Assembly: GCA_022843805.1 (NCBI GenBank)
Contig: JALHMY010000006.1
Span: forward strand, 62,001-126,000
Origin: Fuerstiella sp.
GTDB taxonomy: Bacteria > Planctomycetota > Planctomycetia > Planctomycetales > Planctomycetaceae
DNA: 64,000 nt
Direction of reading: 5' to 3'
Shown here: piece by piece, positions 2,343-61,868 of the stretch
How positions within the stretch are numbered: position 1 is the stretch's first letter
Layout: every line of letters begins with the position of its first letter
The notes under the pieces: generated by a model
Seen by the model: only the letters and a program-made list of their open reading frames with translations
Databases searched by the model: none
What the model was told of the DNA's origin: nothing
Position numbers and translations under genes: made by a program

Positions 2343-3650
2343 TCAGTCGCGAGAATCCTTCGGTTGCTCGACAACAATCAGAGGAACATTTACCGCTTCG
2401 GATTGATTGAATTGGCCCTTTAGAAGTGCCGAGATCCGTTCCTGCACAGCAGCTTCCGTGCGATCGTTTGCCAGTCGGACGACTGCTCCAAGGCTGGTTG
2501 CCTGGTCGAACTGACTGTCTGCAATGCCGAGACCGCTGAAGAACTGGCGAACCTGCTGAACCTGAGGATCCGAGGCAACTGCATCTTTCTGTTCCGGGGA
2601 CAGAGCAGTAGCAGAGGCTTCCGATGCAACTCGAAACATCGCCTGCCAGCGGTTTTCAGTCGTCCTGTGAAAGAGCACTCTCCATGTGCTGGCAAGTCCT
2701 GCTTCAGGCTGAATGGAGAATCCGGAGATCGAAACGGTTTTTACGTCTCGATCGGCCGCCGTTTTCTGCACGCTGGCAGGAAGTTCACTGATGTCCCTGT
2801 TGAATGAAGCTTTTGACCCCGTGGCAGAAGTTCCTCCGAATTCGGGACCGAGCAGCTCGGCCAGTTGAGACTGAGCCTGTTCCGCCAGCATTTGAGACAT
2901 GATCGCCTGCAGACTGGTGTTCTCGTCCTGCAGGACGAGTGTTGAACCGGTCGAAATGAATTCCGCAACTTTGGCTGTCCGAAAATCGATGGCTGTCTCG
3001 AACTGGTCCCATTGCTGAATTACCGGCGGACTAATGGAGGAGGGCATCGCCGTAACTCTCTTGTCCGGCGGAATTGCCTGCAGCTGCTGCAAAGCCTGCT
3101 GCCATGGAATCGTCTCCGGTTCCGGCAGTCTGTTAAGGAATGTTGGCAAGCCGAGTTGTTGGTTCCGTGGCGACTGGGGTTCGTATCGACGAATCATTTT
3201 GGGAGGCAGTTGCACCTGAACGAGTTCCGGCAAAGTAACCGGGTTTGCTGGTTCAAGGCTGAGATACTCCTTCATCAGTCCGATTCGCTGCAAATCTTTT
3301 TCCGGAGCCTGTTCCAGTTCTCGAATCTCGTTGCGGATCAATTCTGCAATCTGATCATTTTGAGACGCATTGCTGATAGCTTTGAGAGAGGGTTCTACCT
3401 GGTCGTGGAAAAATGGGGCCGCATTCTCGCGAATCCATTCTGTTCGGAACAGAAAAGTGTTCGTCTTATTGGGAACCGGAACTCCATACAGACGCGTTTG
3501 ATCTGTGAGAATTATGAGGCTGGCAACTCGATCTCGAAATGCCACGCGTTTTGGCTGTTGGCCGAGGGATTCTGATTGATGGAACGTCATCATCGGGACA
3601 TACAGGCTGAGGCCGATGCGGCAGAGCACGCTTGCATAAACTCTGAACAT
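2343..3650 (-). CDS. Unknown exported protein, probably periplasmic
   Basis: A 435-residue protein whose N-terminus has a short hydrophobic stretch (residues 4-20) that could be a signal peptide or anchor. The remainder is hydrophilic and Gln/Glu-rich, with helical segments (residues 95-125, 185-205 and 330-360) and no recognised catalytic motif. A GGAG sits 8 bases before ATG 3650, supporting that start. It is the first gene of a two-gene minus-strand unit with the DxD membrane protein (6-base gap). Function unknown; the pairing suggests a shared envelope role, which is inference only. Confidence 0.75.
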   Translation of the reverse strand: MFRVYASVLCRIGLSLYVPMMTFHQSESLGQQPKRVAFRDRVASLIILTDQTRLYGVPVPNKTNTFLFRTEWIRENAAPFFHDQVEPSLKAISNASQNDQIAELIRNEIRELEQAPEKDLQRIGLMKEYLSLEPANPVTLPELVQVQLPPKMIRRYEPQSPRNQQLGLPTFLNRLPEPETIPWQQALQQLQAIPPDKRVTAMPSSISPPVIQQWDQFETAIDFRTAKVAEFISTGSTLVLQDENTSLQAIMSQMLAEQAQSQLAELLGPEFGGTSATGSKASFNRDISELPASVQKTAADRDVKTVSISGFSIQPEAGLASTWRVLFHRTTENRWQAMFRVASEASATALSPEQKDAVASDPQVQQVRQFFSGLGIADSQFDQATSLGAVVRLANDRTEAAVQERISALLKGQFNQSEAVNVPLIVVEQPKDSRD

Positions 3651-22065: not shown

Positions 22066-22394
22066 TTTTTCTTCTTAGTTAGTTGAGTTGACGAAAGAAG
22101 TGGTAATTCCGCGGCGCATTGGGTCAGTGATTCGTGGGGCAGTTCGTCGCATGGCCGCTTTACCCTTGCGTCTTGCTGGCTCATGGCTTCGTGCCGAAGT
22201 GCTGCAGGAACTTTCACAGAAGACGCTTTCGGTCTGTTCTGTTGGGCGTGGCGCCATCACATTTTATGCGCCTAAACCTCTGGCTTCAGGACCGTGCGGC
22301 TTCGCTCTTTACAAAAGAGCCGGAAATGATTCGCTGGTTTGACTCCGTTGGGAAAGATGCCGTTTTATGGGGTATTGGTGCAAATGTTGGCTTA

Positions 22395-22568
22395 GAACCC
22401 CTAACAAAACCTGCGTGAGCCGCAACCACAGACGTCCCGGAGGGTTGTGTCGAGAGCGGTCGATCTGCGGCGTCATCACTCCTCGACGACATTTGTCGCC
22501 TCGTCGCTCTTCCTTGCAGCTCAACCACTCTCGACACAACGCGGCCACGGAGGTTTTGTTAGGGGTTC
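22395..22568. mobile_element. MITE-like element, 174 bp, inserted in the FkbM gene
   Basis: Terminal inverted repeats: AGAACCCCTAACAAAACCT (22394-22412) is exactly complementary to 22551-22569, and pairing continues imperfectly inward (CGTGAGCCGC against CGTGGCCGC). TTA flanks both ends (22392-22394 and 22569-22571). A second, internal inverted repeat pairs GTTGTGTCGAGAGCGG (22444-22459) with 22525-22540, one mismatch. No transposase frame fits inside, so it is non-autonomous. The three-base TTA duplication is supported because removing the element restores the FkbM reading frame. TNA-type targets are known for some IS5-group elements; any link to that group is inference. Confidence 0.85.
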
Positions 22569-22742
22569 TTATTCAGTCTCTACTCGGTCGTGTAGAATAA
22601 CTGTCGAGTCCTCGCGTTTGAGCCCCCTGCCGCGAACGTCCATGTATTGTGCAGAAATATCCAGCTCAATAGTCTTAGTGATCGGGTGACTGCCTATTGT
22701 CTTGCGATGTCAGTAGCCACTGAGAGAGGACATCTGAATCTG

Positions 22743-22781
22743 GGTTCGGCGGACATAGGTTCGGCGGACATAGGTTCGGCG
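22743..22781 (+). repeat. 15-bp tandem repeat in the FkbM pseudogene
   Basis: GGTTCGGCGGACATA is present twice in full (22743-22757, 22758-22772) and then as a 9-base partial copy. It is in frame and gives a repeated Ser-Ala-Asp-Ile-Gly, where related proteins are expected to have only one such segment. It fits decay by slippage after loss of selection. Confidence 0.8.
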
Positions 22782-23154
22782 ATGAGCCAGTTTGAGCGAG
22801 GCAGAGAAGCCTCTCGATACTGGAATGGGACTCAGTTTCTCATTCAGGGAATGGTGGGAATGACGATTGATGAATTCATCGCGCGGTTTAATCCACCATT
22901 TCCCACGCATATCAAGATGGATGTTGACGGACTTGAAGCTGCGATTTTGAATGGCGCATTGGGGACACTTGCGGATGGCCGTTTGAGAGCGGTCATGATC
23001 GAGTTGAGTGTTACTGACCTGGTTGAGAAAACAGTATCCGTTAAACTGTTGAATAGTTTTGGGTTTCGGTTGTCAGGTACGGGTGAGTGGCAGGGCACTA
23101 AATAACAGAGTGCCGCCAATCATCTGTTTGAACGCAGCTGACGCAGTGGAGATC

Positions 23155-61500: not shown

Positions 61501-61765
61501 GGAGCGTACGCAGGCAATTATGCAGGCGAACCGGGACCGACTGCGGCCCATTCTGATGACGACCGTTTCCTTTGTCGCCGGTTTGCTGCCACTTCTGATT
61601 GCGACCGGACCGGGAGCAGAGGAACGTCGATCCATTGCTGTACTGGCGGTGGGTGGGCAGACGTTTTCGCTGCTGCTTACTCTGCTGGCCGTGCCCGTGC
61701 TGTATTCGTTCTTCGACGACCTTGGCAATCTAATGAAAAAGTTTTTGCTTCGAAAAGGTGTTTAG
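58562..61765 (+). CDS. RND efflux permease (AcrB/MdtC family)
   Basis: Proton-driven inner-membrane exporter, 1067 residues, family length. Membrane helix 1 begins CVKRPVFALMLILALIVGG. Helix 4 has GVVIDDAIVVLENV, with the Asp-Asp proton relay, and the helix-10 Lys is in FGVVKKAAILQID. The porter domains and 12 hydrophobic segments are in the right order. Start GTG 58562 has GGAGA ~8 bases upstream. The stop codon TAG overlaps the left edge of a repeat element (61765-61817), so the original C-terminus may have been different. Confidence 0.95.
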   Translation: MSWLAEICVKRPVFALMLILALIVGGVTAFPQLGVDRFPNMDLPTIFVRTNYPGAASEEVESEVSSVIEDAVATVAGIEELRSISRDGRSFVLVTFSLDRNVDAATQDVRDAVSGVMNRLPPDIDPPVVQKQDLDSSPVMTLAVSGPRTARELFVLADNYVKNVIESSKGVGEVRIAGAADRAVKIEIDARRLAAHRLSILEVREAIVRQNTEVPGGRIDEGRRERALRTMGRVSHSRLFPDLVVSTVNGSPVRLSDLGQVHDSTKDVRTMARLNGQPAVVLQVQRQSGENTVAVIDSVKKMLPRCQDLLPDDVKVEVIQDQSRYIVAALHEIEQHLISGSILACITVLLFMRSWRSTVIASVAIPASIIATFAFMKWFDFTLNNVTMLALVLMVGVVIDDAIVVLENVFLCIEERGMDPMTAAVEGTREIGLAVLATTLSLVIVFLPVSFLSSVTGRMLFQFGVTATVAIMVSMLVSFSLTPMMCSRMLKSVSSVSGAGQPASRRGIYYLIEVSYLWMLARAMRFRWLVLLVSVGVMASNIPLYSLVRQDYIPLNVDESEFEVRVEAKQGASLSSMRDAVELIEAEVRQIDGIQTMLTSLGSQGFGEVNRADMFIRLTDTTQRTFSLGRWFEGLLQGDMKAAFKGNFTQRDKMAEVRTRLNSIPDIRVSVRNLTSLRQGAPVDIDFSITGPEIGRLLAFSDELTARAKQIPGIVDVASTLQIDSPELLARIDRERAAALGVDVREIADTLRIAVGGDDRVSRYRDRTIDDAYDVELRLVGIDRGDIESISQLYVRANPDPGVISPLAMIAVRELGTVPTHLDNLVSFEHHQAASRIDRLNRQRMVAVRANVDGEYALGDRIEAMRAAAKEIGIPAGFSTQVLGGGRELERTLADFGWTMALSFIFMYIVLAAQYEHLVHPFVILLSLPLAVPFGLLSLYWGGESLNLYSAMGILVLFGVVKKAAILQIDHTNALREKGMERTQAIMQANRDRLRPILMTTVSFVAGLLPLLIATGPGAEERRSIAVLAVGGQTFSLLLTLLAVPVLYSFFDDLGNLMKKFLLRKGV

Positions 61766-61817
61766 AACCCCTGGCAAAACCGGCATGAGCCACGACGCCG
61801 GAGGCTTTTCGTGGTTC
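61765..61817. repeat. Short relative of the MITE-like element, at the RND gene end
   Basis: GAACCCCTGGCAAAACCGGC at the left matches the left end of the 22395 element (GAACCCCTAACAAAACCTGC), with TGAGCC following in both. The right end GGTTC complements the left GAACC, and TTA flanks both sides (61762-61764, 61818-61820), as at the FkbM insertion. An inner CCGGC/GCCGG can form a hairpin. At 53 bp it is a shortened or minimal form of the element. Confidence 0.7.
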
Positions 61818-61868
61818 TTAACCGCCTGCTGAAGCGTATTGGTCTTCTGAATCGTACTGACCTTCAGA

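Follow-up and report, generated by a model that had tools for sequence, protein, structure and literature searches.

A 174-bp segment with no gene of its own interrupts a methyltransferase gene in a 64,000-nucleotide stretch of DNA from Fuerstiella sp. (the window), which raises the question of what the segment is and what brought it there. The initial annotation proposed a mobile element, a candidate for a new MITE family, and its mobile nature is borne out by a repeat family in the same genome, by the ends of the segment and by its TTA flanks. Judged from sequence comparisons, the most probable explanation (probability of about 0.9) is a gene-less MITE family moved in trans by an IS5-type transposase, from an IS lineage like that found in G055, a genome belonging to the same taxonomic family.

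The element copy occupies positions 22395–22568 of the window (minus strand, with the family orientation taken as in copy L003). TTA is read on both sides, at 22392–22394 and 22569–22571. The terminal inverted repeat GAACCCCTAACAAAACC lies at 22395–22411 on the plus strand, and its counterpart at 22552–22568 on the minus strand. Both the terminal and the inner inverted repeats are present as claimed, and are slightly longer when mismatches are allowed: the terminal arms span 24 nucleotides (22394–22417 and 22546–22569, 96% complementary), and the inner arms 25 nucleotides (22444–22468 and 22516–22540, 88%). The inner repeat forms hairpin 1 of the family unit (22444–22540). Nowhere else in the window is there a perfect inverted repeat of 17 or more bases within 400 bp, and the same criterion found none in 20 first-order Markov sequences of window length. 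The single-strand DNA fold of the copy has a z-score of −9.4. No ORF of at least 20 amino acids lies wholly within the element, in agreement with the initial annotation, and five ORFs of 77–94 amino acids cross its edges.

The interrupted gene is an FkbM-family methyltransferase pseudogene at 22134–23105 on the plus strand, the start being provisional. When the flanks are joined and a single TTA is retained, one frame results, which reads ...GANVGLFSLYSVV... and continues through the downstream part to the end of the gene. The downstream part matches FkbM (PF05050, TIGR01444), and the upstream piece of 87 codons has no Pfam match by itself. Removal of the element had been expected to restore the FkbM sequence exactly; the frame is restored, but the gene is not intact, since an in-frame TAG remains at 22593–22595. 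Therefore, FkbM has a second lesion, and the element is not its sole defect. The gene also contains a 15-bp direct repeat, GGTTCGGCGGACATA, present twice and followed by a partial third copy (22743–22781).

The window's own genome (G000, a 9.2-Mb draft in 172 contigs) contains abundant further copies of the terminal repeat. The 17-bp end has 53 matches with at most two mismatches, compared to two for a reversed-pattern control. Five complete copies are 256 bp long, each 98–100% identical to the reference copy, and shorter complete forms with good ends measure 151 and 52 bp. With 256 bp as the family unit, the window copy is an internally deleted derivative, lacking unit positions 146–227 (82 bp) with the break at a shared GCG. 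Aligned with one complete 256-bp copy, it differs by this single 82-bp gap between short GCG repeats and by two substitutions. The length of 174 bp is as first described, but its being a multiple of three is incidental, because 174 is 256 minus 82 and not the family unit. A second, decayed copy of 53 bp lies in the same window at 61765–61817 on the plus strand, between TTA at 61762–61764 and at 61818–61820, and 33 bp of it align at 85%. The family is short and non-coding, with perfect or near-perfect inverted ends, dispersed copies and a flanking duplication, which are the features of a MITE.

Flanks could be read for 69 complete copies, and by script count the 3-bp flanks are identical in 34, of which 33 are TTA or TAA; two more (L030 and L245), with identical TWA by eye, would bring the count to 36 of 69. 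A pyrimidine precedes the flank in all 34 copies with identical flanks and a purine follows it in 26, and the insertion sites fit YTWAR. Unlike flanks are TAA before and TTA after the element in eight copies and the reverse in one, and other copies look mutated. These TAA/TTA combinations are not expected of a plain 3-bp duplication, and the duplication is not universal. In a rough test on 35 complete copies, 22 have no 110-residue ORF across the joined site; the window copy, although borne by a gene, is among them. No empty allele of the same site was seen in three genomes of the same genus (12 of 15 sites, three compared in detail). Other repeats lie near some sites in G000. The left flank of L018 and the right flank of L019 have in common another palindromic repeat, GTCGCCTTTTGCTCCGCAAAAGG-like, and the right flank of L026 contains a 26–38-bp palindromic repeat, GCGAGTCTCGGAGAGACTCGCC, which also occurs at 15 places in the same-genus genome G001.

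An IS with the same ends was sought, and an intact 901-bp IS5 element was found by translated search as a single copy in G055 (contig C76; L123, 753–1653). Its ends, GAACGCCTAACAAAACC and GAACGCCTAACAAAACT, are identical to the element ends at 16 and 15 of 17 bases, and its flanks, CTAA and TAAG, represent a TAA duplication. The IS contains one intact 268-residue ORF with PF13340 and PF01609, and its product matches NF033580 (IS5 family transposase) with 237.7 bits against a cut-off of 110. The unit, in contrast, is not autonomous, and outside the ends its interior does not resemble the IS (the best-matching stretch, of about 35 bp, has an E of 0.007). Elsewhere in G055, pairs of similar ends lie 97–98 bp apart (L112, L132).

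IS copies with such ends are also present on plasmids. A plasmid search with the end variant of a Chelatococcus metagenome-assembled genome (MAG) returned 36 records, with an IS5 transposase gene under the match in 7 of the 20 listed, and a second plasmid search gave a similar result. Copies from Azospirillum (ISAzba7), Methylorubrum (ISMch2), Microvirga, Deinococcus and Roseomonas are 845–861 bp long, have ends like GAGCGCCTAACAAAACC and are flanked by duplications of TAA or TTA, and the alphaproteobacterial and Deinococcus IS5 copies match 14–15 of 17 bases at the ends compared. Seven of nine IS copies with such ends (L123, L385–L392) have an identical TWA duplication; the Pandoraea copy (L390) has unlike flanks, TTA and TAA, and the second end of the Massilia copy (L392) was not found. 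The IS5 elements ISAzba7 and ISMch2 resemble the family in their ends, GAG(C/T)GC(C/G)TAACA(A/G)AAC, and in TWA duplication at YTWAR, but they are autonomous elements of 852 and 861 bp from alphaproteobacterial plasmids that encode a transposase and have an unrelated interior. The G055 element and these ends and targets support the earlier guess, made from the three-base duplication, of an IS5-group transposase. With numerous further copies and an IS of like ends, neither of the outcomes that would have refuted the initial proposal applies. Homologues of the G055 transposase with about 62% identity are annotated as IS402 family on Burkholderia plasmids, and other ends occur despite a like score in a B. 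vietnamiensis IS (GAGACGGTTTCA) and a Cupriavidus IS (AAAGCCCTAACAAAATG). Because of these copies with other ends, the element can be tied by its end sequence to the ISAzba7/ISMch2 type, and to no IS5 subgroup such as IS427 or IS1031.

No matching transposase was found in the 172-contig draft G000. The informative profile is PF13340, since the G055 transposase scores below the PF13586 cut-off; PF13340 has no hit in G000, in the Chelatococcus MAG or in G045, which belongs to another genus and has a finished genome of 8.92 Mb. These three genomes and G002 also lack PF13586, and PF13359 is below cut-off in all six genomes searched. Element ends bound none of the nine PF01609 loci of G000 and none of 21 of the 65 matches in G045, where one locus (L278) merely adjoins an element. 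The nine G000 loci have no similarity to pieces of the ISAzba7 protein. Among the matches listed, no end pair at IS length encloses a transposase in G000 or G045, and a 659-bp span in G000 (C1:55580–56238) has no ORF over 127 amino acids. Two other IS5 elements were rejected as helpers: that of G008 (C371) has the inverted pair TAGGGCGTGTGGACATTC, which does not match the element, and that of Massilia putida (L290), which lies beside an end motif, has different, TTA-flanked ends of its own. No TNA-flanked inverted ends were detected by an automated search of 15 transposase loci; this search needed eight exact end bases and missed at least L290, so it carries low weight. As no such transposase was found in G000, the helper was lost from the window's genome, is foreign or was missed, which limits the claim of current mobility and not that of the kind of element. 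MITEs often outlive their helper.

Based on these comparisons, a mechanism of movement can be proposed. The transposase would recognise the 17-bp end GA(A/G)C(C/G)CCTAACAAAACC, mobilise the element and integrate it at YTWAR with a 3-bp TWA duplication. An IS lineage of the G055 type is the probable source of the transposase, and the helper may later have been lost from the window's genome or may act from elsewhere. The window copy presumably lost hairpin 2 by slippage at the GCG repeat.

Matches to the family at E ≤ 0.001 were found in 7 of 119 genomes searched, G000 included, two of which are marginal (G055 and G115). In G045, 18 of the 23 complete copies among the matches listed are exactly 256 bp long, two are 255 bp (L233, L245), and the rest measure 220, 168 and 52 bp. 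Scanning GTDB contigs with an 18-base end yielded 93 stretches, most of them by far in planctomycete records; 80 of the stretches were analysed (L216–L228, 13 stretches, were left out). The paired ends in the 80 stretches enclose lengths of 256 bp (14 copies), 137 bp (six), 48 bp (five), 120 bp (four), 162 bp (three, all Chelatococcus), 49 bp (two) and six single lengths. The six 137-bp copies have one common junction, in which one base varies, and the four 120-bp copies have another; the copies of each form are at different sites. The deletion forms themselves appear to be mobile, and the ends with part of the interior therefore suffice for movement. The distribution is narrow, since a 20-base end pattern with at most one mismatch occurs in 4 genomes of a sample of 392 from the phylum. 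A G001 copy matches that of G000 with 98% identity, lies at an unrelated site and is one-ended at 184 bp, whereas non-repeat flanks of other G000 sites match G001 at 72–90%. This difference hints at horizontal or very recent movement. Two copies carry additional DNA. The copy at L205 (SYLK01000152.1, 4748–5125) contains an insert that is itself bounded by inverted repeats (GGACCGGCCAAAAAAT...) and may be another MITE nested within the first, and a 282-bp copy at L171 (CAMAVB010000198.1, 1712–1993) has an extra segment within hairpin 1, with two more single ends nearby, at 3380 and 3436. End matches in phages are at chance level. The CCCC-type end has no exact match in viral contigs, and one viral contig carries an IS5 bearing a GAGCGCC end. 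At both Streptomyces plasmid matches, the sequence read contained no obvious element.

Palindromes bounded by the end motif of the family, for the most part between TWA triplets, also occur in the Chelatococcus MAG (162 bp, strongly folding), in an Anaerolineales MAG (79–102 bp) and in Massilia litorea (101 bp). Their interiors and lengths differ from those of the planctomycete unit, and nothing beyond the ends speaks for a common descent. These palindromes look like separate MITEs of the same IS lineage.

In ten G000 copies, each 40 bp or longer with an identity of 95% or higher, one end is exact and follows a TWA triplet, and the inner break varies from copy to copy (C5:161789, C6:58382, C18, C25, C29, C48, C50:51475, C78, C80 and C118). 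Copies on C36, C39, C114 and C139 stop at contig edges and were left out of this count. A 22-bp stub of the element lies at C4:128105. G045 has one plain one-ended case (L237); another copy, L249, is broken by another IS, and L383 is an end stub beside that IS. The flanks of one-ended copies have diverged too far in genomes of the same genus to distinguish a one-ended insertion from a subsequent deletion. The plain explanation for these copies is that unstable palindromes were later deleted in part. Truncated copies, including end-truncated ones, are also described for the QMITE2 element of Coxiella (PMC10969869).

The 256-bp unit is predicted to fold end to end as single-strand DNA into a cloverleaf (z = −12), with an outer stem (unit positions 1–29/227–256), hairpin 1 (30–124), a mini-hairpin (125–133) and hairpin 2 (134–226). 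The alignment of 35 copies from six genome records contains no gap, in part by selection, as they were chosen as 256-bp copies. In the 34 distinct rows, 93.3% of the cells are paired, against 89.6% after shuffling (0 of 500 shuffles). Double changes occur at 21 pairs against 10.3, and in 114 cells against 42.4 (0 of 500 for both). Counts of this kind are inflated by relatedness of the copies, and the fold model came from one of the aligned sequences. The paired changes could also have arisen by template switching between the arms. The mismatches are skewed in opposite directions, with 128 G-T against 27 A-C cells in hairpin 1 and 6 against 72 in hairpin 2, as if the hairpins had opposite polarity. 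The local score of hairpin 1 aligned to inverted hairpin 2 is 37 in one G045 copy (shuffle maximum 26) and 18 in one G000 copy (shuffle maximum 25). Since the similarity beats the shuffles in the G045 copy and not in that of G000, the origin of the two hairpins as an inverted dimer is a suggestion from sequence similarity. We speculate that the unit may be a structured transposon and not an idle IS remnant, with a cloverleaf under selection across genera whose two long hairpins are perhaps related arms in inverted orientation, its folded strand acting in transposition or host interaction, and its one-ended copies being products of an abortive one-ended reaction; this elaboration is tentative and rather unlikely.

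The fold could also have a function of its own, as a regulatory RNA, a terminator or single-strand DNA handled by a recombinase, with inverted ends that serve mainly to fold. The gapless alignment and the excess of paired cells and double changes would agree with this, as would several G045 copies that abut 3′ ends of genes. In six G045 copies the 3′ end of the right-hand ORF is no more than 14 bases from the element, a position that the TWA target would allow. However, many sites also hold forms without hairpin 2 and 48-bp copies made of the outer stem only, and the wobble pairs favour opposite strands in the two hairpins, which leaves no clear single working strand. Around the window copy (22200–22800), no Rfam family was detected at the gathering score and no promoter-like site was found, with one terminator-like site against 0.4 expected. 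A functional fold would also leave the target duplications and the matching IS ends unexplained, and we consider it improbable.

Movement by another transposase of the host, for example that of a 2052-bp IS of G045, is less probable still. Two G045 copies of this IS lie at element-end sequence, L382 against a mini-element and L383 against the end stub, but the IS was inserted into the element's end and does not share it; the IS itself ends in CCCAACTTCCCC, and a comparison of ten copies showed mostly YTAR-like flanks. The end boxes of integron attC sites are RYYYAAC/GTTRRRY, and some relatives of the element read GCCTAAC...GTTAGGC, as a recombination site might. The usual end, CCCTAAC or CCCTGAC, nevertheless breaks the box, which is lacking at most ends read, and four more bases are paired outside it. 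The copies have TWA duplications and IS5 elements own such ends, and an attC-like site in place of a transposon has almost no probability. Transposition by an IS5-type transposase remains the preferred reading.

Among known elements, Tourist MITEs of the PIF/Harbinger group, which are eukaryotic, have a 3-bp TTA/TAA duplication and IS5-related transposases, and their likeness to the planctomycete family is by description alone. Chunjie and QMITE elements, also compared by description, are likewise multi-copy with a wide size range, but they have other hosts, and the direct repeats of QMITE2 are 7–9 bp (PMC10969869). REP palindromes are reported in Planctomycetes, with no IS5-type MITE there in the part of the account available (PMC3733652). 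Searches of the literature, covering few subscription papers, for the end motif in both orientations, Fuerstiella repeats, planctomycete MITEs and ISMch2 found no description of the family, and those on IS5-linked MITEs and IS402 led to papers on MITEs and IS in general. The candidate put forward by the initial annotation is thus confirmed as a multi-copy family and, as judged from the literature, is probably a new family within a kind already known, the IS5-type MITEs, for which a helper lineage is probable. It is unusual mainly for the exact 256-base folded architecture kept across several planctomycete genomes. Its interest rests on this architecture and on the one-ended copies, not on the insertion itself.

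The findings connect a MITE family with an IS5 lineage that matches it in ends, target and duplication, in a little-studied phylum. The occurrence of the same ends on unrelated palindromes in Alphaproteobacteria, Betaproteobacteria and Chloroflexota indicates that a single lineage of transposases may serve numerous independent mini-elements. With its exact 256-bp architecture and its one-ended copies, the family offers a way to test whether the interior of a MITE matters for its movement.
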